This document shows positions 7,152 through 25,802 of a DNA stretch of 28,680 nt, one piece after another. Under the pieces are notes generated by a model. It was given only the letters and a program-made list of their open reading frames with translations, was not told the DNA's origin and did no database searches. Source of the stretch: a virus; IMG/VR virus record IMGVR_UViG_3300019132_000067, positions 1 through 28,680 of that record. One strand, 5' to 3'. The stretch's first letter is position 1; each line of letters starts with the position of its first letter. The position numbers and the translations under genes are program-made.

Positions 7152-9277
7152 TGGCTGACGATCAGAACACCACGGCGAAGTCGGATGAGACCGGCGACGC
7201 GGATTTTCTGAAGGAAGCCCGCGAGCGCTATGACCGCGCGCGTCAACGCGAACTCAGCAACGTTGCCGAGGCTTATGAGGATCTTGAGTTTCGAGCAGGC
7301 GAGCAATGGGACAATGAAGCCAAGAAGGCGCGGGCTGATCGTCCTTGCCTGACCATTAACCGCATTCCGCAGTTCGTGCGCCAAGTCACGGGCGACATGC
7401 GGCAGATGAAGCCGGCCATCAAGGTCGTGCCGGTCGACAACAAGGGCGATCCCGAGACGGCGGAAGTCCAGGCGGGCATGATCCGCTATATCGAGAACCG
7501 TTCGGATGCGCCTGCTGTGTACTTCCAGGCTGCCGATAGCCAGGTCGCCTGTGGCGTTGGCGCGTGGCGTGTGCTGACCGAATACGCGGATGACAGCACG
7601 TTCAATCAGGAGCTGCGAATTGCTCCGATTGAGGACGCTGTTGCGGTCATGTGGGACCCGGACGCGGTTTTGCCGACGCGCGAGGACGCCATGTGGTGCT
7701 TCGTGCCGGTCGATATGACCCGCGCGGCCTTCAAGGCCAAATACCCGAACGCCAGCGTCGAGAGCTTCGACGGTGGTGAGCACCAAGCGACGTTCACCGA
7801 TTGGTACGGGGACGATTACGTTCGGGTTGCGGAGTACTGGTACAAGAAGCCGGCCAAGCGCTTGTTGGCCTTGTCGCCCGATGGATCGGTTGTCGATCTG
7901 ACCGATGCGGAGCCGCAGGAGATCGAGCTAGCGAAGGCGGAAGGCGCTCGGATCGAGTGGCGGGATAGTTACAAGGTTTGCCGGGCCATCATCTCGGCAA
8001 GTGAAGTGCTGGAGCCGCATACCGAATGGCCGGGGCGCTATATCCCGATTGTGCCGGTGTGGGGCGAAGAAATCAGGATCGGCCGCAAGATCGTCCGTCA
8101 TGGCATCGTGCGCTACGCCAAAGATCCGCAGCGCATGTACAACTACTTCCGCTCGGCTCAGACGGAGGTGATCGCACTCCAGCCGAAAGCGCCGTTCATT
8201 GGGACGGAAAAGCAGTTCCAGCAGTATCAAGACGTTTGGGAAACGGCGAACACCGCGAACCATCCGTATTTGGTGTACACGCCGGACGGCGCAGCTCCCC
8301 CGCCTCAACGGGTTCCGCCGCCTGTCTCGTCTCAGGGCATCGATGAGGGCGTTGCTCTTGCCGCCGAGGACATGAAGGCGGTCACCGGCATTTATGACGC
8401 TTCGCTCGGGGCCAAGTCGAACGAGAGCAGTGGCAAGGCCATTCTGGCCCGGCAACGGGAAGGCGACACGGGCACATACGTCTATATCGACAACTTTGCC
8501 CGCGCGATCCGTTACACCGGCAAGATCCTGATCGACCTGATCCCGAAGGTCTACGATACGGCCCGTACCATTCGGATCATCGGAGAGGATGGCAAGGTTG
8601 ATGTGGTGGACATCAACAAGCCGCAGGGGCTGGCTGAAGACGGAGAAACGACCATCTACAAGAACGATGTGACGGTCGGTTCCTACGATGTCGTTCTGGA
8701 AATGGGGCCGAGCTACAATACGCGGCGCGAGGAAGCCAAGGAGGGGATGACAGCCTTCCTGCAATCGGCTCCCGACACTGCGCCGTTGATCATCGATCTG
8801 ATCGCCAAGGCGCAAGATTGGCCAATGGCGAACGAGATTGCCGAGCGTCTGGAAGCGGTTTTACCGCCACAGATCAAGGCGCTGAAAGCCGAGAAAGAGG
8901 GCAAGCCTCTTCCGCCCGAAATGGCCCCGCCGCCTCCCGACCCGTTGCAGGAGCTGGAAGTGGCCGGCAAGCAGCTCGACATCCGCAAGAAAGAGCTTGA
9001 GGTGGCGGAAAAGGAAATGGCCCTTCTAGCGCCATCCGCGCCTGTCGGGGCTCAGCAACCCGCTCCAACGGCGAATGCCGCTCCTGAGCCAAATGCGGGG
9101 CGCGTGGAGGCTATCGAAGCGGCAGTGATCGAGTTGCAGGGCGTCGTTTCGCAGATCGTGGCGCTGCTACAGCCGCCACCGATGCCGCAAGCGCCCGAGA
9201 TGACCATGCAGCAGCCGCCTTCGGGCGGCTCTTTTGTTTCCGAGATCCCGCCGGAGCAGCAGTCTCCGGTGATGTGA
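7151..9277 (+). CDS. P22-type portal protein
   Basis: A 708-residue portal, very close in length to P22 gp1 (725). It forms the dodecameric ring at one capsid vertex through which DNA enters and leaves. N-terminal features such as 'FRAGEQWDNEAKKARADRPC' and 'LTINRIPQFVRQVTGDMRQ' are characteristic of P22-like portals. The C-terminal 150 residues are rich in Pro, Gln, Ala and Glu, the coiled-coil barrel region. I chose ATG 7151, overlapping the terminase stop, over a TTG at 7148. The extreme 3' end of the gene contains a terminator-like hairpin at 9213-9230. The position matches P22 gene 1. Confidence 0.93.
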   Translation: MADDQNTTAKSDETGDADFLKEARERYDRARQRELSNVAEAYEDLEFRAGEQWDNEAKKARADRPCLTINRIPQFVRQVTGDMRQMKPAIKVVPVDNKGDPETAEVQAGMIRYIENRSDAPAVYFQAADSQVACGVGAWRVLTEYADDSTFNQELRIAPIEDAVAVMWDPDAVLPTREDAMWCFVPVDMTRAAFKAKYPNASVESFDGGEHQATFTDWYGDDYVRVAEYWYKKPAKRLLALSPDGSVVDLTDAEPQEIELAKAEGARIEWRDSYKVCRAIISASEVLEPHTEWPGRYIPIVPVWGEEIRIGRKIVRHGIVRYAKDPQRMYNYFRSAQTEVIALQPKAPFIGTEKQFQQYQDVWETANTANHPYLVYTPDGAAPPPQRVPPPVSSQGIDEGVALAAEDMKAVTGIYDASLGAKSNESSGKAILARQREGDTGTYVYIDNFARAIRYTGKILIDLIPKVYDTARTIRIIGEDGKVDVVDINKPQGLAEDGETTIYKNDVTVGSYDVVLEMGPSYNTRREEAKEGMTAFLQSAPDTAPLIIDLIAKAQDWPMANEIAERLEAVLPPQIKALKAEKEGKPLPPEMAPPPPDPLQELEVAGKQLDIRKKELEVAEKEMALLAPSAPVGAQQPAPTANAAPEPNAGRVEAIEAAVIELQGVVSQIVALLQPPPMPQAPEMTMQQPPSGGSFVSEIPPEQQSPVM
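9213..9236 (+). terminator. Terminator-like hairpin inside 3' end of portal gene
   Basis: A perfect 7-bp stem AGCCGCC/GGCGGCT (9213-9219 with 9224-9230) with TTCG loop, followed by CTTTTG. It lies about 45 bases before the portal stop, so translating ribosomes would disrupt it. It is nearly the same as the hairpin at 9324-9341. Confidence 0.45.
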
Positions 9278-9323
9278 GCTTCGCGCAGGCAGTCGCACAA
9301 CGTGGCTGCCGCGACGATGAACG

Positions 9324-9350
9324 GCCGTCCTTCGGGGCGGCTTTTTCTTT
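9324..9350 (+). terminator. Intrinsic-terminator-like hairpin before scaffold gene
   Basis: A 7-bp stem GCCGTCC/GGGCGGC (9324-9330 with 9335-9341, one G-U pair) with TTCG loop, then TTTTTCTTT. It sits in the 82-base gap between portal and scaffold and ends 10 bases before ATG 9360. That is inside the late operon, so it should reduce downstream expression unless polymerase is antiterminated. Confidence 0.65.
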
Positions 9351-15106: not shown

Positions 15107-17002
15107 ATGGCGCTGCGCATCTATGACCTGAGCACGAACTACCCCGACTATTTCGGGATGCTGTCTCAGATTGGGCAAACGGTTACCAGTGGGTTCGATA
15201 AGGCGCGGAAGAACGCCCAGGAAGGCGAGGCCGCTCAGCTCCTCAGTGAGCTTGCCGGTCAGCCCCAAACGGCTTCCGCTTCGGATGCAACTGGAGGCGT
15301 GACCACGCTTGCCAGCCTTGGTCAGAGCACCCCGCAGCAGCAGGGCTATAACGCCTCCGGCAAGATGCCCTCTTTCGTGGAGCGTCAGGGGGCAACCCCG
15401 TCGCTGGATCTCGCCGGACTGTTTACGGAAGCGGAGCGGCGCTATGCTCTGCCAAACGGCTATCTGTCGCGCACCGCCTCTATCGAGAGCCGCAACGATC
15501 CGAACGCGCGCAATCCCAACTCTTCGGCCGAGGGCCTGTTTCAGTTCACGGATCGCACGGCGCGCGGCTATGGCCTGAACAACAAGTTCGACCCGGTTGC
15601 AAGCACGGATGCGGCGGGTCGTCTCGCTGCGGACAATCGGGCTGCTCTCAAGCGCGCTCTTGGCCGTGATCCGACGCCTGGCGAGCTTTATCTTGCCCAT
15701 CAGCAGGGCGCGGGCGGGGCAATCAAGTTGCTCAGCAACCCGAATGCGCGGGCCGTGGATGTCGTGGGGCAAGATGCCGTTCACCTGAATGGCGGCGATC
15801 CCAACATGACCGCCCAACAGTTCGCCGGCCGGTGGATCAGCAAGTTGGATGGACGCGCGGACGCTCCGGCTCCCGGCGCTCAACCGGCGCAATTCCAAGT
15901 GCCGGGGCAGGCGGGCCTTCCGGGCTCGGCCGTAGGCAACGGCCAGATCCGCCCCGATTTGATCCGCCGTCTTGCCGCTAATCCGTATACGCGGGAGCTG
16001 GCAAGCAAACTGATCACCCAGCAACTCAGTCCGCAGGGGCAATACAGCCTGACGACTGTTGGCGATCAGGCCGTACGGTTCAACCAGAGGACCGGGGCGG
16101 TTGAGGTCGTGCCGGGCATCACGAAGCCAAATATCGAGGTAAAGGAGGTGAATGGGCGGCTTGTGGCAGTCGATAAGTCCAATCTGTCCACGCGCGACGT
16201 AACGCCTGACGGTCTCCCGCAGGCCATGTTTAATGGCAACAGCGTTGACGCTCAGGCTCTGAACTATCTGGTCCAGTCCGGCCAATTGACTCGCGAACAG
16301 GCAGCACAGGTTGCCGCTGGAAAGACGATCACAGGTCCGAATGGGGAGATCTTGTTTGCGCCTCCGGCCGCTCTTGTTGGCGGTGTATCCGGTGGCCCGC
16401 AAATGCAGCCACAGCAGCCTCCCGAAGGCCCCACTGCGCAATCCTCTGCCGCGCAACCTGGCTTGGTGCAGCTGACTGCACCGAAGGCGGAAAAGCCCAC
16501 TGATGGACAATCCACCACAGCACTTTATGCCAGACGCGCGAAGGAGGCCGACCAGGTTCTGAGCGGCACCGAGGATGTGGGAAAGAGTAGCTGGGAGAAC
16601 ATCAAGTCAGCCGTTCCCAAGGTGGGGAACCACTTGGTCAGCGAGGACTTTCAGAAATTTGAGCAAGCGCAACGCAACTTCATCAACGCCCTTCTTCGTA
16701 AGGAGTCCGGCGCTGTTATTGGCCCGGAAGAATTTGACAACGCACGGAAGCAATACTTCCCACAACCCGGTGATAGCGATGCGGTTCTCGTTCAGAAACG
16801 ACAGAACCGCCAAACGGCTATTGAAGAGCTTACCAAAGCGGCTGGTCCTGCCATGCCACGTCAGCCATTGCCGACCGGCGTGACTGCGGCGCAGGCCCTA
16901 GCCGAAGCAAAAGGGGCTTACGCCAAGGCAACCCCGCAGCAAAAAGCCGCCATTCGGCAACGCCTGCAATCCTGGGGTATTGACCCATCGAGGCTCGACT
17001 AA
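15107..17002 (+). CDS. Ejection protein with lytic transglycosylase (SLT) domain, P22 gp20 position
   Basis: A 631-residue internal virion protein. Residues about 103-250 form a lytic transglycosylase-like domain: 'LPNGYLSRTASIESRNDPNA' (catalytic Glu127), 'SSAEGLFQFTDRTARGYGL', 'PGELYLAHQQGAGGAIKLL'. It would open the peptidoglycan during DNA entry. The rest is Gln/Ala/Pro-rich with a charged helical C-terminus ('QTAIEELTKAAGP', 'AYAKATPQQKAAIRQRLQSW'). I chose ATG 15107, 7 bases after GGAGGG, over the TTG at 15104. The stop overlaps the next start. The enzymatic domain appears to be absent from P22 gp20, so the equivalence is positional. Confidence 0.85.
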   Translation: MALRIYDLSTNYPDYFGMLSQIGQTVTSGFDKARKNAQEGEAAQLLSELAGQPQTASASDATGGVTTLASLGQSTPQQQGYNASGKMPSFVERQGATPSLDLAGLFTEAERRYALPNGYLSRTASIESRNDPNARNPNSSAEGLFQFTDRTARGYGLNNKFDPVASTDAAGRLAADNRAALKRALGRDPTPGELYLAHQQGAGGAIKLLSNPNARAVDVVGQDAVHLNGGDPNMTAQQFAGRWISKLDGRADAPAPGAQPAQFQVPGQAGLPGSAVGNGQIRPDLIRRLAANPYTRELASKLITQQLSPQGQYSLTTVGDQAVRFNQRTGAVEVVPGITKPNIEVKEVNGRLVAVDKSNLSTRDVTPDGLPQAMFNGNSVDAQALNYLVQSGQLTREQAAQVAAGKTITGPNGEILFAPPAALVGGVSGGPQMQPQQPPEGPTAQSSAAQPGLVQLTAPKAEKPTDGQSTTALYARRAKEADQVLSGTEDVGKSSWENIKSAVPKVGNHLVSEDFQKFEQAQRNFINALLRKESGAVIGPEEFDNARKQYFPQPGDSDAVLVQKRQNRQTAIEELTKAAGPAMPRQPLPTGVTAAQALAEAKGAYAKATPQQKAAIRQRLQSWGIDPSRLD

Positions 17003-18756
17003 TGCCCGGACTTTTTGACGACATTATGCGGGAGCAGGCCGCAAGCGAGCCCACTGCCGCACCTCCGAATGCCGGCGGTGGCTTGTTTGATGATATTATG
17101 GCGGTACAGCCGCAGCCCTCACAGCCTGCGCCGCGCGTGATCGAGGATTTCACAGACCCGACATCACGGCTCTACAGCCAGCGCCACGGCGGATCGTTCG
17201 TGACCGGCTTGTTTGACGGCATCAAGAAGCTGGTCACGGACCCCGCGCGAGCGGCCACGGGCGAGCTACAGGTATGGGACCCCGTAACCGGGCATGTCTC
17301 GGACGAAGCTGTGGAGAGCGGGTTCAATGCTGCCGCGTTTGCGAACCCTGTTGCGCCGCGCGGACTTGTGCCAACAGTAAAAGCTCCGCCTGTTGCCGCC
17401 CATCCCAAAGGGGGCGGCGAGGTTGCGGAGGCCGCCGCACGGCTCAGTCAGGAGGGCTCGCCCGTCAACGTCCCGCGTGGTGTCGCTTCCGACCGGGCTG
17501 CTGTCCAAGCGCTGTACCAGCGCGGGCGGCAGGTGCCGGGCGCAACAGAGGTTATCACGAAATCTCTCGACGATTTCTACAAGGGCGTTGAGACCAAGGT
17601 GGACGAAGTCGCGGCGCGGGCCGCTGGTGGCGAGGTCAAGGACCCAGCAACGTTAGGCGCTTCCGTTCGCACATCGGTGGAAAAGGCAATTGAGGGAGCC
17701 GAAGCCAAGGGGGATGAAGCTTTCGCCATCATGCGGCGTGCCATCGACCCGGAGATGCCGGTGCATGCTCTCACAGATGATGTTGCTAAGACGTTGAATT
17801 ATGTCATGGCGGAGCGCTCCGCAGCTGGAGAGCGCGGAATTGCGGACCAGCTTACGCCGACATTTAACATTTTGACTGACCCGAAGGGTGTTTCCTTCAA
17901 CGGGCTCCAGCGCGCACGCTCTCAAGTGGGTCGCGCTATTCAGTGGGACGAGGCGCGCGGCGGCATGGTCGCGGGCGATCTCAAGCGGGTTTACGGAGCT
18001 TTGACGCAGGCGATGGAGACGGCGGCGCGGGCTTCTGCGAAGAATGACCCGGATGCTGCTGTCAGTCTTCTTAAAGCGGCCGATGCACGCTTTGCCAAGA
18101 TGAGCGCCGACAATAAAGTGCTCCGATCCGTTCTCCGTCCAGACGCCGATGAGGGGCTTGTCAATTCGCTGATCAGTATGGCCTCCAGCAAGAGCGGCAA
18201 TATCCGCAAACTCAGCCAGACGCTGCACGAGATGGGGCCGGATGCGATCAACGATCTTACCGCGTTCGTGGTCCAGGGTCTCGGTCGCAACCGCAAAGGA
18301 GAGTTTTCGCCCAATGCTTTTGAGACAAATTGGGCCTCTCTGAGCCCGGCTGGGAAGTCGCTTCTGTTCCGTGATAAGGCCGTGCGTCAAGCGCTTGAAG
18401 ATCTCGCGACAGTCGCGAAGCGCATGGCCGAAACTCAACGGAAATTTGCAAATTCGTCCAACACAGCGGGCAATTTGGGCGCTGGGGCGACTGCCGCGGG
18501 TCTTTTCGTTGACCCTGTGACCACCATCGCGACCTTGATTGGCGCAAACGGCATGGCACGCATCCTCTCAAAACCTGCAACAGCTCGGGCAGCGGCCCGA
18601 TATGCGAAGACGCTGGAGGCTTTGTCTAAATCAAGATCACCGGAAGTTGCCGCGCGATTAGAAAAAGCGCAGCTTCAATTCCTGGCAACGGTGGAGCGAG
18701 CGGGCATTGTCGCCGTCAACGATAATTCGGCTATTCAGGCAGCTTCCGGGCAATAG
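17002..18756 (+). CDS. Large ejection protein, P22 gp16 position
   Basis: A 584-residue protein in the place of P22 gene 16 (609 residues). The N-terminus carries three copies of a short motif, GLFDDI at 3-8, GLFDDI at 27-32 and GLFDGI at 69-74, separated by Pro/Ala-rich linkers. The middle is helical and charged. A Gly/Ala/Val-rich hydrophobic region near 470-510 ('AGNLGAGATAAGLFVDPVTT', 'IATLIGANGMARI') could insert in membranes, as expected of a protein that forms the DNA conduit. The last 26 bases overlap a convergent leftward gene. No enzyme motif is visible. Confidence 0.72.
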   Translation: MPGLFDDIMREQAASEPTAAPPNAGGGLFDDIMAVQPQPSQPAPRVIEDFTDPTSRLYSQRHGGSFVTGLFDGIKKLVTDPARAATGELQVWDPVTGHVSDEAVESGFNAAAFANPVAPRGLVPTVKAPPVAAHPKGGGEVAEAAARLSQEGSPVNVPRGVASDRAAVQALYQRGRQVPGATEVITKSLDDFYKGVETKVDEVAARAAGGEVKDPATLGASVRTSVEKAIEGAEAKGDEAFAIMRRAIDPEMPVHALTDDVAKTLNYVMAERSAAGERGIADQLTPTFNILTDPKGVSFNGLQRARSQVGRAIQWDEARGGMVAGDLKRVYGALTQAMETAARASAKNDPDAAVSLLKAADARFAKMSADNKVLRSVLRPDADEGLVNSLISMASSKSGNIRKLSQTLHEMGPDAINDLTAFVVQGLGRNRKGEFSPNAFETNWASLSPAGKSLLFRDKAVRQALEDLATVAKRMAETQRKFANSSNTAGNLGAGATAAGLFVDPVTTIATLIGANGMARILSKPATARAAARYAKTLEALSKSRSPEVAARLEKAQLQFLATVERAGIVAVNDNSAIQAASGQ

Positions 18757-18961
18757 GGGAGCGCCTCAGGAGCGGCCTTAAAACATCGCCCAACAGAAGA
18801 AGCCCGGCCCCCATCAACGTGGCGCAACTTATAACAACCATCGTCCGGGGATTCTCCCCGGACGGTAAAATCGTAAAGTGACTGACCAGGAAGTAAGCAC
18901 CGATGCCGAGTAGCGCCGACCCAAGTGCTAGGCAAACTGATAGTCGGATCATCTGTTTCAT
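18731..18961 (-). CDS. Two-helix membrane protein, 76 aa
   Basis: ATG 18961 gives 76 residues with hydrophobic helices at about 5-27 ('IRLSVCLALGSALLGIGAYF') and 42-60 ('VVISCATLMGAGLLLLGDV'), then a basic tail 'RPLLRRSPIARK'. A TTG at 19012 could add 17 residues but would overlap the upstream lipoprotein gene. There is no good Shine-Dalgarno, so expression may depend on coupling to the lipoprotein gene 25 bases upstream. It is the last gene of the leftward cassette and its 3' end overlaps the ejection gene tail to tail. Its slot corresponds to the P22 region holding sieA. Confidence 0.6.
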   Translation of the reverse strand: MKQMIRLSVCLALGSALLGIGAYFLVSHFTILPSGENPRTMVVISCATLMGAGLLLLGDVLRPLLRRSPIARKLPE

Positions 18962-18986
18962 TTGATCTATGTTATGTCCAGCGGAC

Positions 18987-19415
18987 TTAATAACACGATA
19001 CGGTCTGGCCAACGCGACTGCATCTGATGGGAGCTGATGCAGCTTCCTGGGCGGCTACAGCTCTACGCGCAATGCCCCTGCGTTCCATCTCGCTAACTAG
19101 GCGATGGTTCGCTTCTGCTTCTGCGAGTTCCGCTTGCGCAGCGGTCATCTCACCTCGGTCAACTTTCTCCGCAATAGCTGTCCGCGTAGCAAATTTGACG
19201 TTCCAAAGATCGGGGTAATGCCCCTGAACCTGAGCAAGGGGGGCTTCCGCAGCATTAAGGCATCTGGCCGCATCGACCCACGTTCTGAATTTCCCGGCTT
19301 GGGCATTGGCTCGGCACTCGGCTCTTGCGCCATCTACGCCGGCGCGGATTTCGGCATTCCGCGAAACACACCCGGACAGCATGATAGCGAGCGCCACCGC
19401 AGTAATTGCTCGCAT
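18987..19415 (-). CDS. Secreted lipoprotein of unknown function, 142 aa
   Basis: ATG 19415 has GGGGGGAG just upstream. The N-terminus is a lipoprotein signal: basic start, hydrophobic 'ITAVALAIMLSGC' with lipobox L-S-G-C and lipidated Cys16. The mature part is helical and charged ('NLWDV...' type region near the middle, 'EMTAAQAELAEAEANHRLVS'), with paired cysteines in the early part and near the end ('RCSRVGQTVSC'), so disulphides in the periplasm are likely. It lies between two small membrane proteins in a leftward cassette. It could mediate superinfection exclusion or be a spanin-like subunit; the distance from the lysis genes argues for the former. Confidence 0.75.
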   Translation of the reverse strand: MRAITAVALAIMLSGCVSRNAEIRAGVDGARAECRANAQAGKFRTWVDAARCLNAAEAPLAQVQGHYPDLWNVKFATRTAIAEKVDRGEMTAAQAELAEAEANHRLVSEMERRGIARRAVAAQEAASAPIRCSRVGQTVSCY

Positions 19416-19454
19416 GAATACTCCCCCCAAGAAGCGGGGTAACCTTAGCAGTTC

Positions 19455-19721
19455 TCAATTATGAGTCGAGTGGCGCAAGCTCTCGCCGTGCGGCTCACTT
19501 ACCTTGGAGCGGCGGAAGCGGGCCGCAATAGCCCCGGCCAGTCGCGATAAAACAAACAGCAGGAAGGAAACGATCAGGGCGAAGGCAAAGCCCAGCATGG
19601 CTACGGCCGGTCCATCGCCAAACCGCTGGGGACCGAGGTATCCACTCTGGTGCAACCAAATGGCTCCCATGTACCCTGCGAAGAACAGGGCGAAGAACAG
19701 CCATTTGGGGAGGCGCGTCAT
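19455..19721 (-). CDS. Two-helix membrane protein, 88 aa
   Basis: ATG 19721 (AAAGG upstream) is preferred over a longer frame to 19787 that starts with polar, unlikely sequence. Helices lie at about 7-23 ('WLFFALFFAGYMGAIWL') and 39-59 ('AVAMLGFAFALIVSFLLFVL'), followed by a basic segment 'RLAGAIAARFRRSK' and a polar tail. It is encoded between the Doc toxin and the lipoprotein, 39 bases before the latter. Holin-like topology is possible, but a standard holin is encoded beside the endolysin at 24190. An exclusion or envelope-modifying role is more likely by context. Confidence 0.6.
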   Translation of the reverse strand: MTRLPKWLFFALFFAGYMGAIWLHQSGYLGPQRFGDGPAVAMLGFAFALIVSFLLFVLSRLAGAIAARFRRSKVSEPHGESLRHSTHN

Positions 19722-19791
19722 GCTTGAACCTTTGGTCCGCCACGGGGAATATGGCGGCAAGCGTGGCTGAGCGCAACTGGAGTCCAAGCGG

Positions 19792-20205
19792 CTAGTCCGC
19801 CACGTAATCGGCTAACTCCGCGATGAATATCTGCATGGTTTTGGTAAAGGACGCTTCGGAGATTTCCCCATTGATCACTTGGAGCACTAATTCACCGAAG
19901 AGTTCAGTATCAGCTACAGTGAGCATGTAGCCGTTCATCTCCAAGAACATCACTGCAGCGATAAAGCCGGCCCGCTTGTTGCCTTGTTCAAAGGCATGGT
20001 TGCGCGCGATACCGAAAAGCAAGGTGGTGGCGAGCGCAAGGATGTCCTGCTCGCCACCATACAGGTAGTGGTAGCGCGGCTTATTCACCGCACTATCCAA
20101 TAGCTCTGGGCTTCGGAGGTTAAACGGCTCACCTGTCTGAGCAACCGCGTCGCGGCAGATCTCTATGACCTCCTCAACAGGAAGCCACAGAGGCTCATTT
20201 GGCAA
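19792..20205 (-). CDS. doc: Doc-type (Fic-fold) toxin, death-on-curing family
   Basis: Contains the Fic/Doc active-site motif 'NHAFEQGNKRAGF' (His70, Asn76, Lys77, Arg78), within the alphaproteobacterial Doc variant HxFEQGNKRxGF, plus 'RSPELLDSAVNKPRYHYLYG' at 31-50, the flap region. Doc kinases phosphorylate EF-Tu and halt translation. No ATG lies at a sensible place; TTG 20205 gives 137 residues beginning 'PNEPLWLPVEEVIEI', which aligns with normal Doc starts and overlaps the antitoxin end by 11 bases. A longer frame to 20292 would overlap the antitoxin fully. Coupled translation after the antitoxin fits a toxin-antitoxin operon. Confidence 0.88.
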   Translation of the reverse strand: MPNEPLWLPVEEVIEICRDAVAQTGEPFNLRSPELLDSAVNKPRYHYLYGGEQDILALATTLLFGIARNHAFEQGNKRAGFIAAVMFLEMNGYMLTVADTELFGELVLQVINGEISEASFTKTMQIFIAELADYVAD

Positions 20206-20368
20206 GATGGGCGAGTACCTTCGGGAAACGAGCCATCGCCTTCTTGCGAAGGGCGGCGTAATCAACAGGCCCACTTTGCGGCTTCGCGACAAGCACCTGC
20301 TTCGCGACCGCGTGCTCGCCGTGGGCCGCAGGACGGCTATCGACGATCACTTGCTTGCGCGCCAGCAT
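20195..20368 (-). CDS. Antitoxin of the Doc pair (Phd-like role)
   Basis: ATG 20368 is preceded by AAGGAG at ideal spacing and gives 57 residues. The C-terminal stretch 'VDYAALRKKAMARFPKVLAH' matches the short antitoxins found with this Doc subfamily, whose C-terminal helix blocks the toxin active site. The N-terminus is basic ('MLARKQVIVDSR'). A longer start at 20416 is possible. It is the first gene of the leftward cassette, directly before doc. No classic Phd/YefM DNA-binding fold is evident at this length, so autoregulation may differ from P1 Phd/Doc. Confidence 0.75.
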   Translation of the reverse strand: MLARKQVIVDSRPAAHGEHAVAKQVLVAKPQSGPVDYAALRKKAMARFPKVLAHLAK

Positions 20369-20437: not shown

Positions 20438-20466
20438 ATGATGAACTGTTCCATCTAACTTGGCAA
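20438..20466 (-). promoter_or_regulatory. Possible promoter of toxin-antitoxin cassette
   Basis: On the minus strand TTGCCA (complement of 20461-20466, 5 of 6) and CATCAT (complement of 20438-20443, 4 of 6) are separated by 17 bases. The start point would be near 20431, about 60 bases before the antitoxin ATG 20368. It is the only reasonable promoter seen upstream of the leftward cassette. Confidence 0.4.
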
Positions 20467-20560
20467 TAAGGCTTAACAGTGGCCGAGCCGTGTGAGACGG
20501 GCGGGGCATATGCACCCAAAGCGCACCGGGCGCAAGGGTGGTTTGGCATCATGTTGATCA

Positions 20561-20590
20561 AAGGCTCGCTTCGGCGGGCCTTTTTCTTTT
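20561..20590 (+). terminator. Intrinsic-terminator-like hairpin before first tail fibre gene
   Basis: A stem of 9 bp (20561-20569 with 20574-20582, one G-U pair) with TTCG loop, followed by TTTTTCTTTT. The T-tract runs almost into the ribosome site GGAG at 20591-20594 of the fibre gene starting at 20605. Confidence 0.7.
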
Positions 20591-20604: not shown

Positions 20605-21747
20605 ATGGCAACTCTTTGGCCGCTCTCACACACGGTCATCTTCGACCTGAACGGGCAGATCGCACGGGGTGCGCTCGTTTACTTCTACGACAGCGGGACC
20701 ACGACACCGCGCACCGTTTATGCCGATAGCGCCTTAACAACACCTCGGACCCATCCGGTTGTTGCCGATGCGGTTGGGCGCTTCCCGGCCATCTTCCTGC
20801 CTTACGGGGACTACCGCGCCCGTGTGACCGACGCGAGCGGCGTTTTGATCTTCGACACAGATGCGATCAGCAATCCTGCCCCTCCCGACGATGGCGGCGG
20901 CTCAGGCATTGTCGTTTCCATAGAGCAGATCTTTCAAACCGGCGATGCGCTGTTTCTGGAGAAAACAGGCACACGCAACGGATGGGTTCGAGACAACGGG
21001 CGCACCATTGGCAATGCGGCCTCTGGTGCAACAGAGCGGGCCAACGCCGACTGCGCCAATCTCTTCGCGTGGTACTGGAACAACTTTTCCGACAGCATTT
21101 GCCCGGTTTCAGGCGGACGCGGCGGAAGTGCAGCGGCAGACTTCGCCGCCAACAAAACCATTCAAACCCTCGACAAACGAGGCCGCGCCGCAGTCGGTCT
21201 CGACGATATGGGCAACAGCCCGGCGAACCGCATTCAACGCTCTACCACGATCAACACGACCAACGGATCAACAAGCGTCACTGTCGCATCCGTCGCCGGT
21301 ATCGTGCCCGGCATGTACGTGATCTCTGCCAATATTCCGGCCGGAGCCACGATCACGGCCATATCGGGAGCGACGCTCACCTTGTCGCAGGCCGCGACGG
21401 CAACGGCATCCAGCACGGCGGCCCGGTTCTCGCTGTTCCGTGATGCTCAAGTGCCAGGGTACAGCGCGGGCGGCGATACCCATGCTCTCGTTTTGAATGA
21501 GATCCCGGCCCACAATCACGGCGGCACGACAGGGCATGCAGGATCGCACAACCACAACTACACGGGCAGCACGAACAACACCGTGGTGGGGGTCGGTTCT
21601 GGAGCGAATCCAGCCGGACCAGTCTCTACAGGCAACGTCACATCCACCGCGCCCGACCACAGCCACACCATTGCTTCGGCAGGCGGCGGGCACCCCCACA
21701 ACAACCTCCAGCCCAGCATTCTCGGGACTTGGTATCGGAAACTTTGA
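20605..21747 (+). CDS. Tail fibre with head-binding-like N-terminus and His-rich collar C-terminus
   Basis: A 380-residue receptor-binding protein. ATG 20605 with GGAG upstream is chosen; an in-frame GTG at 20479 would read through the terminator stem. Residues about 10-85 ('FDLNGQIARGALVYFYDSGT', 'PVVADAVGRFPAIFLPYGDY') resemble the tail-attachment domain of podoviral fibres. Residues 125-210 are collar-like ('GWVRDNGRTIG', 'LDKRGRAAVGLDDMG'). At 215-275 a Thr/Val/Ala-rich beta segment interrupts the collar. The end is rich in His pairs ('IPAHNHGGTTGHAGSHNHNY', 'DHSHTI'), like metal-binding collar tips in T4 short fibres. It sits where P22 has gene 9. Confidence 0.85.
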   Translation: MATLWPLSHTVIFDLNGQIARGALVYFYDSGTTTPRTVYADSALTTPRTHPVVADAVGRFPAIFLPYGDYRARVTDASGVLIFDTDAISNPAPPDDGGGSGIVVSIEQIFQTGDALFLEKTGTRNGWVRDNGRTIGNAASGATERANADCANLFAWYWNNFSDSICPVSGGRGGSAAADFAANKTIQTLDKRGRAAVGLDDMGNSPANRIQRSTTINTTNGSTSVTVASVAGIVPGMYVISANIPAGATITAISGATLTLSQAATATASSTAARFSLFRDAQVPGYSAGGDTHALVLNEIPAHNHGGTTGHAGSHNHNYTGSTNNTVVGVGSGANPAGPVSTGNVTSTAPDHSHTIASAGGGHPHNNLQPSILGTWYRKL

Positions 21748-23662: not shown

Positions 23663-24193
23663 ATGAAAACAGGACCCAAGGGCCTGGACCTCATCAAGAG
23701 GTTCGAGGGGCTGAGAACGCGCGCCTACCAGGATAGCGTTGGCGTCTGGACAATTGGTTATGGTCACACGGCTGCGGCCGGCGATCCCAAGCCCGTGGCC
23801 GGCATGGTCCTGACCGTTGCCGAATGCGAGGCGATCCTGAAGCGTGACCTCGCCAAGTACGAGCGTGAGGTGTCCAGCCTCGTCAAAGTCCCGCTCTCGC
23901 AAGAGCAGTTCGACGCGCTCGTTAGCTTTCATTTCAACACCGGAGCGCTCGGACGTTCGACGCTGCTGAAGCGGCTGAACGCTGGCGATTATGCCGCTGT
24001 GCCGTCCGAACTGCGTAAGTGGACGAAGGCAGGCGGCAAGGTCCTAGCCGGGCTCGTCAAGCGCCGAGAGGCAGAAGCTGCCCTTTTCATGTCAGCAAGC
24101 CCGGTTCTGCCGGATGTCGAGCCATCCGCCGATGCTCCAAAGATCCCTCCCGGTATCCGCCTCATCAACTGGCTCAGGAGCCTTTTCGCATGA
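23663..24193 (+). CDS. Endolysin, T4-type lysozyme (glycoside hydrolase family 24)
   Basis: A 176-residue muramidase that cuts peptidoglycan at lysis. The catalytic triad follows the T4 pattern E-x8-D-x5-T: Glu15 in 'RFEG', Asp24 in 'AYQD', Thr30 in 'VWTIGYGHT'. 'QEQFDALVSFHFNTGALGRS' and 'KAGGKVLAGLVKRREAEAAL' are family hallmarks. There is no signal or anchor at the N-terminus, so release depends on a holin, and one is encoded next. The C-terminal 30 residues ('PPGIRLINWLRSLFA') add an amphipathic tail beyond the usual lysozyme. The stop overlaps the holin start by ATGA. Confidence 0.94.
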   Translation: MKTGPKGLDLIKRFEGLRTRAYQDSVGVWTIGYGHTAAAGDPKPVAGMVLTVAECEAILKRDLAKYEREVSSLVKVPLSQEQFDALVSFHFNTGALGRSTLLKRLNAGDYAAVPSELRKWTKAGGKVLAGLVKRREAEAALFMSASPVLPDVEPSADAPKIPPGIRLINWLRSLFA

Positions 24194-24588
24194 TCCTGCA
24201 AATTCTCGGGCTCGTTGCCCCTATTCTGGAAAAGGTCATTCCCGATCCAGAGAAGCGCATCGAAGCAGAACGCGAGCTGCAAAAGACGCTCTTGGAGAAC
24301 CAGGCTTCACTCAATCAGGCCATGGCTGATGTGATGAAGGCCGATGCTCAAAGCGAGGGCTTTCTGACCCGCAATGCGCGGCCGGTCACGGTCATCTGGT
24401 CGGTTGCCATGGTGACCTATGTTGGCGTGATCGCGCCGCTGTTCGGCATCCAGAAAGAAACGATTGACGCGTTGCAGGCCGTGCCGTCCGACCTGTGGTC
24501 GCTGATGACGGTCGGCATCGGGGCCTACATGCTCGGCAAATCCGGTGAGGGCATCGCTCGCACGGTCGCGGGGAAGGGCAGGCCGTGA
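24190..24588 (+). CDS. Holin, three-transmembrane GTA type
   Basis: A 132-residue membrane protein directly coupled to the endolysin. Hydrophobic segments lie at about 2-18, 66-86 ('VTVIWSVAMVTYVGVIAPLF') and 101-117 ('LWSLMTVGIGAYMLGKS'), with a charged helical stretch between the first two. The phrase 'TRNARPVTVIW' followed by 'GIGAYMLGKSGE' is characteristic of the GTA-holin / 3TM holin family common in alphaproteobacterial phages. It would form inner-membrane holes that let the endolysin out. ATG 24190 is fixed by the ATGA overlap; GTGA joins it to the next gene. Confidence 0.88.
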   Translation: MILQILGLVAPILEKVIPDPEKRIEAERELQKTLLENQASLNQAMADVMKADAQSEGFLTRNARPVTVIWSVAMVTYVGVIAPLFGIQKETIDALQAVPSDLWSLMTVGIGAYMLGKSGEGIARTVAGKGRP

Positions 24589-25097: not shown

Positions 25098-25802
25098 ATG
25101 CTTAAATTGTCTCTTGCGGCAGCCGTTGCGCTGCCTGTGATCGCGTGCGCCCAAGTTCAAACGGAGGTTCAACAGCGTCAGTCCGAAATGCTCAATCCCA
25201 CGGTGCGGGTTGAACTGGAACAGGGCAGCGGATCGGGCACCGTCATTCATTCCTCGTCCAAGGGGACCTTTCTACTCACCAATCATCACGTGGCCGGCGA
25301 GAAAGGGGCGAAAGTCCAGGTCCGGTTCTGGCTGCTCAACGACAACAGCGAAACGGTTCTCTCGGTCCTGCGGGACGCGGAAGTGGTGGCGTCCGATGCT
25401 GACCGCGATCTTGCGTTGCTTCGTCTTGTGGATAGCGAGTTCAGGGCGGAAGCCGTCGCGCGCATCGCGCCTGAACGCACTCGGCTCCACCCTGGTGAGG
25501 ATGTGTGGGTGGCTGGTGCTGCGCTGGGCCTACGGGCGCACCTCACGCAAGGGCTTTTGAGCCTTGTGGCGCATTCGGTCATGAAGCGGGATCACATGGT
25601 GACCTCGGCTCCAGTGGTGCCGGGTAATTCAGGGGGCGGCGTCTACCATCGTGGGGCCGATGGGCGGTTCTACTACATCGGCACGGTGCGCGCTGTGGCT
25701 TTGGTCGGGTTCGGCTCCGTAGTCCCCACCACGAATTACGCCATTCCCAATTCCAGCCTGCGGGAGTTCCTGAAGGCCAATGACTTCGGGTGGCTGGTGT
25801 AA
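25098..25802 (+). CDS. Trypsin-like serine protease with lipoprotein signal
   Basis: A 234-residue chymotrypsin-fold protease with all three catalytic residues visible: His64 in 'LLTNHHVAG', Asp104 in 'DADRDLALL', Ser178 in 'VVPGNSGGGV', plus 'GSGSGTVI' at 43-50, as in HtrA-type proteases. There is no PDZ domain. The N-terminus 'MLKLSLAAAVALPVIAC' has a lipobox V-I-A-C, so Cys17 is probably lipidated and the enzyme faces the periplasm. It has its own intergenic region upstream and is coupled (TAATG) to the metallophosphoesterase gene downstream. Substrate is unknown; it could process envelope or surface proteins of the lysogen, or help lysis. Confidence 0.88.
   Translation: MLKLSLAAAVALPVIACAQVQTEVQQRQSEMLNPTVRVELEQGSGSGTVIHSSSKGTFLLTNHHVAGEKGAKVQVRFWLLNDNSETVLSVLRDAEVVASDADRDLALLRLVDSEFRAEAVARIAPERTRLHPGEDVWVAGAALGLRAHLTQGLLSLVAHSVMKRDHMVTSAPVVPGNSGGGVYHRGADGRFYYIGTVRAVALVGFGSVVPTTNYAIPNSSLREFLKANDFGWLV

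Follow-up and report, generated by a model that had tools for sequence, protein, structure and literature searches.

A candidate superinfection-exclusion slot between the last ejection-protein gene and the first tail-fibre gene of P22-like alphaproteobacterial phages

SieA of phage P22 has been described as the one system studied so far that is believed to stop short-tailed phages from injecting their DNA (PMC10883804). Leavitt et al. reported sieA-like genes from enterobacterial genera alone, and every case that they examined in detail has the gene at the gene 16/tailspike position (mBio 2024, PMC10883804). In the P22 record (NC_002371), gene 16 is followed 22 bases on by the leftward sieA gene and then by the leftward mnt, the divergent arc and ant, and gene 9. 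Here we describe the equivalent interval, hereafter called the slot, in the virus record IMGVR_UViG_3300019132_000067. This complete record of 28,680 bases is the window of our analysis, and it contains no host flank because the window itself is the whole virus record. The window has a P22-type rightward late region encoding terminase, portal, scaffold, P22-type coat protein, head closure, three ejection-type proteins, fibre, endolysin and holin. Its slot (18731-20368) is filled by five leftward open reading frames (ORFs), which encode an antidote, a Doc toxin, a two-helix membrane protein (TM3), a lipoprotein (LP) and a second two-helix membrane protein (TM5).

The reading that we favour, at about even confidence, is that the slot is an exclusion hotspot expressed in lysogens, in which independent envelope genes that can be exchanged for one another act in a SieA-like manner, accompanied by a toxin-antitoxin module. 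We infer the expression in lysogens, the cellular location of the products, the exclusion and its target. The slot looks like a general, unrecognised place for rival-excluding genes in such phages. A limited literature search found no account of it in alphaproteobacterial phages; to our knowledge, the extension of the slot by position to these phages is new, whereas the kind of system is already known.

Related loci were collected from bacterial genomes and IMG/VR through coat and head-closure alignments, and a hidden Markov model of the fibre N-terminal domain, built partly from the window fibre, located the slot in 76 of them. A non-redundant set of 58 slots was obtained by clustering the gp16-like proteins at 80% and omitting seven loci with a misfit upstream gene or phage type. 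The gap between the gp16-like gene and the fibre gene ranges from slightly negative to 4.7 kb. In 38 of the 53 slots with at least 150 bases, a leftward ORF that contains a strong membrane segment terminates where the gp16-like gene ends, compared with 1.9 +/- 1.3 (maximum 6) leftward membrane ORFs per 53 dinucleotide-shuffled gaps; hydropathy is a rough test of membrane segments, the gp16-like gene was in several cases assigned by position, and the related sequences are not fully independent. Only 7/53 slots have a rightward membrane ORF. Among the non-redundant slots with at least 150 bases of room, 34/39 carry a small leftward membrane gene that meets or overlaps the 3' end of the gp16-like gene (30 at a stricter hydropathy cut), as do 21 of the 25 bacterial-genome or isolate-type IMG records. 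The membrane proteins group into many clusters by sequence. Their largest family has pN/pS values of 0.09-0.49, and the lipoproteins of loci L117 and L177 have a value of 0.25, whereas values for spurious frames over the same DNA reach 1.2-5. Therefore, these are real protein genes, and they are under purifying selection. The first-pass annotation of the window had proposed checking whether this interval is a variable hotspot, and the survey agrees: the slot varies across relatives and recurrently holds leftward membrane genes.

The survey also bears on a somewhat unlikely explanation, in which the slot is a site of tolerated insertion and its envelope genes are lysogenic-conversion genes of unrelated kinds (change of the surface, stress, or a lipoprotein related to type I secretion systems) with no exclusion role. 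Leftward cargo would be accepted because a fibre-proximal terminator bounds rightward late transcription. A terminator-like hairpin is present at the right border, near the fibre start, in 31 of the 58 non-redundant slots, against 4.4 expected from mononucleotide shuffles, and usually lies about 45 bases ahead of the fibre start. Distant relatives of LP behind HlyD genes (see below) and very mixed cargo point in the same direction. This cargo includes a Cas2-like protein (L119:17184-17453, -; PF09827, 4.7e-6), a HicA-like toxin in L137 that scores below the curated cut-off, HigBA, a GT25 lipopolysaccharide glycosyltransferase (L104:16507-17325, -; PF01755, 6e-24), a trypsin-like protease in L068 and a protein that is HNH-like by eye. 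However, with random cargo, 34/39 slots would not share a membrane gene placed at the same end and facing the same way, and the position and orientation match those of sieA.

Part of the cargo is associated with the cell envelope. The GT25 enzyme could alter the phage receptor, Rap1a-domain exported proteins are encoded in the slots of L068 and L198, and further lipoproteins are present in sister slots. Membrane or exported slot proteins share N-terminal leaders in L068 (8815-9870; RWVQITLTVVFFAA, RWAQITLTLVLFAA), L198, L081 and L086, which suggests recombination or duplication within the slot. In L138, an ORF before the fibre gene (8742-9341, -) has an N-terminal part that is TolA-like by eye, and its assignment to the slot is unsure.

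The window features discussed hereafter are as follows.
17002-18756, + strand: gene of the last ejection protein, at the gp16 position (third among the ejection-type genes after head closure); left border of the slot
18731-18961, - strand: TM5, a 76-residue two-helix membrane protein in the place of P22 sieA (ORF, hydropathy, recurrent position)
18987-19415, - strand: LP, a 142-residue lipoprotein with a two-Cys C-terminal hairpin (lipobox, slot relatives, AlphaFold2 model)
19455-19721, - strand: TM3, an 88-residue two-helix membrane protein with a basic C-terminal tail (ORF, codon score)
19792-20205, - strand: Doc-family toxin, 137 residues, TTG start (Pfam, TIGR01550, PHROG and PDB matches)
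20195-20368, - strand: Doc antidote, 57 residues (overlap with the Doc start, shared C-terminal tail)
20438-20466, - strand: promoter-like site for the leftward cassette (TTGCCA-17-CATCAT, 9/12 match, not above chance)
20560-20583, + strand: intrinsic-terminator-like hairpin just 5' of the fibre gene (10-bp stem and T-run); right border
20605-21747, + strand: first tail-fibre gene, with a head-binding N-terminal domain (phrog_8763 tail protein, 1.1e-41); right border

The first-pass annotation had likened five leftward genes in this interval to the immI/sieA slot of P22. All five ORFs are present with gaps in the range that it gave (here 70, 39 and 25 bases for Doc/TM3, TM3/LP and LP/TM5), and the analogy holds, with sieA leftward after gene 16 in NC_002371 and immI-type genes in the slot of a close relative. 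The 3' end of TM5 shares 26 bases, convergently, with the rightward gp16-position gene. The product of the latter is 28% identical over 398 residues to its counterpart in L003/L047, has no PHROG match and found nothing in a single-sequence scan of IMG/VR.

The closest relatives of the window are prophages in Agaricicola taiwanensis and Rhodovulum sp. PH10, together with a Proteobacteria metagenome-assembled genome. The slot of the PH10 prophage encodes Bro-N and Bro-N/ANT antirepressors (PF02498, PF03374), a DUF4145 protein, a HigB/HigA pair and two small proteins that are Arc-type by eye and lack a Pfam match. The slots of Agaricicola and the metagenome-assembled genome each contain a single small leftward membrane ORF, the end of which overlaps the gp16-like gene. 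In Acetobacter phage phiAX1, a lysozyme-like structural gene is followed by a leftward gene that lacks a membrane segment and by two divergent Arc-type genes. The window slot itself has no Arc/Mnt or antirepressor gene; Bro-N/ANT is present in the relative L046, and P22_AR_N plus Arc in L239. In the slot of Pseudanabaena phage Pam5 (L273:3850-4375, -), two leftward genes, Pam5_14 and Pam5_15, have a hydrophobic segment.

The window thus resembles P22 in having small leftward genes for membrane proteins (a predicted location in the window) between gene 16 and the tailspike or fibre gene, in a region that carries Arc/Mnt/Ant genes in its relatives. In contrast, P22 SieA, an inner-membrane protein, has three helices and about 163 residues, whereas TM5 and TM3 have two helices and 76-88 residues without sequence similarity to it, and the window cassette adds a lipoprotein and toxin-antitoxin genes. 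Because sequence and helix number differ despite the shared position, orientation, small size and predicted membrane location, we did not file TM5 and TM3 as SieA. Homology was rejected on a comparison with the P22 SieA: neither protein gave a meaningful alignment with it, and the SieA motif FxRYPxEAxxFNK is absent by eye from both.

Each of TM5 and TM3 has two hydrophobic segments by hydropathy, and TM5 likewise has a basic C-terminal tail. Codon usage ranks the annotated frame highest for all five cassette genes, clearly for the antidote, Doc and TM3 (the score of which exceeds that of every other frame); the support is weak for LP and very weak for TM5. TM3, LP and TM5 gave no match above chance to any family in Pfam, PHROGs, NCBIfam or PADLOC. 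TM5 has no confident sequence relatives, and its status as a gene rests mainly on its recurrent position and topology. A perfect 10-bp inverted repeat (CGTCCGGGGA-GAA-TCCCCGGACG, 18842-18864) lies within the TM5 gene. TM3 gave a low-confidence two-helix structure model, showed no similarity to the membrane protein of L045, and found nothing in a single-sequence scan of IMG/VR or by tblastn in phages. Its match to a profile of the two-helix family of the slot is weak (E 0.0027); membership of this family was not accepted, and the match is kept as a hint.

LP has a signal peptide with the lipobox LSGC followed by V (MRAITAVALAIMLSGC), and the lipobox Cys is kept in all aligned relatives. Its AlphaFold2 model (pLDDT 84.9) contains four helices and a C-terminal beta hairpin with two Cys residues; this confident model found no match in the PDB or in viral structure libraries. 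Alignment was needed to find relatives, since a single-sequence IMG/VR scan and tblastn in phages and plasmids gave nothing. A profile identified four in IMG/VR, of which those in L086, L117 and L177 are leftward in the same slot. In L086, a 78-residue two-helix gene overlaps the gp16-like gene and the LP relative comes next, which is the TM5-LP order of the window. In L239, the relative comes immediately after an Arc-domain gene (PF03869, 9.4e-13) and is accompanied by a small gene resembling ribbon-helix-helix proteins and a P22_AR_N antirepressor (2.7e-27) encoded on the opposite strand, an arrangement that reproduces the layout of the immI region. In P22, mnt is a lysogeny-maintenance gene. 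By analogy, the L239 context suggests that the LP relative would be expressed in the prophage. LP is also found in an integrase-bearing element of Agaricicola (L044), and a profile search of 289 class-wide genomes matched only the seed genome.

Among known exclusion factors, Llp of T5 and Cor are small phage-encoded lipoproteins or exported proteins, expected at the outer membrane or in the periplasm. LP is alike in being small and phage-encoded and in its expected location. It differs in its helical model with a C-terminal hairpin, which matches no known fold, and shows no significant similarity to Cor (model phrog_1119, E 0.11). More distant cousins (profile E about 1e-7 to 1e-4) occur in the chromosomes of Alphaproteobacteria, three of them behind HlyD-family genes. 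These lipoproteins share with LP the lipobox Cys, two further invariant Cys residues, a helical body by alignment and mostly a two-Cys C-terminal tail, and differ in that they accompany type I secretion genes rather than a phage and are 24-26% identical. The cousins in L281, L284 and L287 adjoin such HlyD-family type I secretion genes.

The first-pass annotation had also suggested that the three envelope proteins form one system. This is not supported: TM3 and TM5 have no confident homologues, LP is present without them in L117, L177, L239 and L044, and other phages carry single membrane genes. TM5, LP and TM3 are not an obligate system. The slot and the possible exclusion role that the annotation proposed do find support. 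If the slot is an exclusion hotspot, the window would come from a temperate P22-like phage of Alphaproteobacteria with a lysogenic-conversion cassette where P22 has immI and sieA. The genes of this leftward cassette could be transcribed from the prophage while the rightward late genes stay off. TM5, and probably TM3, would reside in the inner membrane as small helical hairpins with both termini inside. Like P22 SieA, they may hinder the gp16/gp20-type conduit through which the DNA of a superinfecting relative is ejected. LP, either anchored in the outer membrane or periplasmic, might act on the periplasmic side and obstruct this route or its receptor. The Doc module would act separately, in prophage retention or abortive infection.

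A broader proposal, which we advance tentatively and with less confidence, is that the gene-16/fibre junction is a conserved exclusion locus of P22-like phages well beyond enterobacteria, at which many small membrane proteins unrelated in sequence, encoded convergently and often accompanied by periplasmic proteins or lipoproteins, have been recruited to block the ejection conduit of related phages; TM5, LP and TM3 would be one such set acting at both membranes. If true, position rather than sequence would find dozens of candidate injection blockers, of many unrelated families, in alphaproteobacterial prophages. With such a testable set one could ask by what means small membrane proteins halt a DNA conduit that spans the envelope, and whether the slot lipoproteins form a second barrier.

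Several results weigh against exclusion as the function of the slot. The HlyD-type neighbours of the chromosomal LP cousins suggest a non-phage origin of LP. TM5 combines weak codon support with the lack of a homologue, and both TM5 and TM3 depart from SieA in sequence and in having two helices rather than three. The leftward promoter that the first-pass annotation had placed near 20450 is a single 9/12 match at chance level (0.9 expected), and no leftward promoter reached significance. Membrane-protein type correlates with the gp16 C-terminus (0.78), the gp16 N-terminus (0.74) and the fibre (0.58); this is no excess over linkage, and co-evolution of the membrane gene with its presumed target at the gp16 C-terminus was not accepted. 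In many survey loci, moreover, the gp16-like gene is assigned by position only.

Judged by its sequence, the toxin certainly belongs to the Doc family. It matches Pfam Fic (PF02661, 1.8e-10), TIGR01550 (48.6 bits, above the cut-off of 38.65), phrog_577 (2.7e-23) and PDB 3k33 (1.6e-7), and carries an HxFxxxNKR-type motif as HAFEQGNKR. Its TTG start overlaps the 3' end of the antidote gene. Of the Phd/Doc pair originally annotated, Doc thus stands (PF02661, TIGR01550, phrog_577) and the name Phd was dropped: no Phd/YefM N-terminal DNA-binding domain was found in the antidote with Pfam, NCBIfam, PHROGs or PADLOC, and its resemblance to Doc antidotes is limited to the C-terminal tail. The antidote ends with ARFPKVLAHLAK, resembling in this the ORFs upstream of Doc homologues fetched from 150 related genomes; these ORFs are mostly AbrB-like by eye and have a tail of the type [YF]xxTLxxLAK. 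The pair therefore resembles the death-on-curing modules of TIGR01550 in having an upstream, overlapping antidote with this tail, and differs in that its 57-residue antidote has no recognised Phd or AbrB DNA-binding domain. Selection may instead act on Doc and its antidote, as a module for retention or abortive infection, with the membrane and lipoprotein genes hitchhiking on the same transcript, but this appears improbable. The intact, clearly coding Doc gene and the HigBA and HicA-like toxins of other slots fit such a role; most slots, however, have the membrane gene without any toxin, and LP recurs without Doc.

It is still less probable that the cassette provides late functions from the opposite strand, namely holin, antiholin or spanin-like accessories, or antisense control of the gp16-like gene through the overlap. 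Pairs of a two-helix protein and a lipoprotein recall holin and spanin anatomy, LP gave a non-significant match to an Rz-like spanin model (E 0.11), and 3' ends overlap the gp16-like gene. However, endolysin and holin are encoded rightward at 23663-24588, the leftward orientation rules out co-transcription with these lysis genes, an LP relative lies behind an Arc-like repressor, and protein-level selection on the slot genes speaks against a purely antisense role. On orientation and context, LP was rejected as a spanin or lysis protein. Adjoining the lysis genes, a rightward gene at 25098-25802 encodes a trypsin-like protease with an apparent signal peptide (phrog_9683); a trypsin-like gene is slot cargo in L068.

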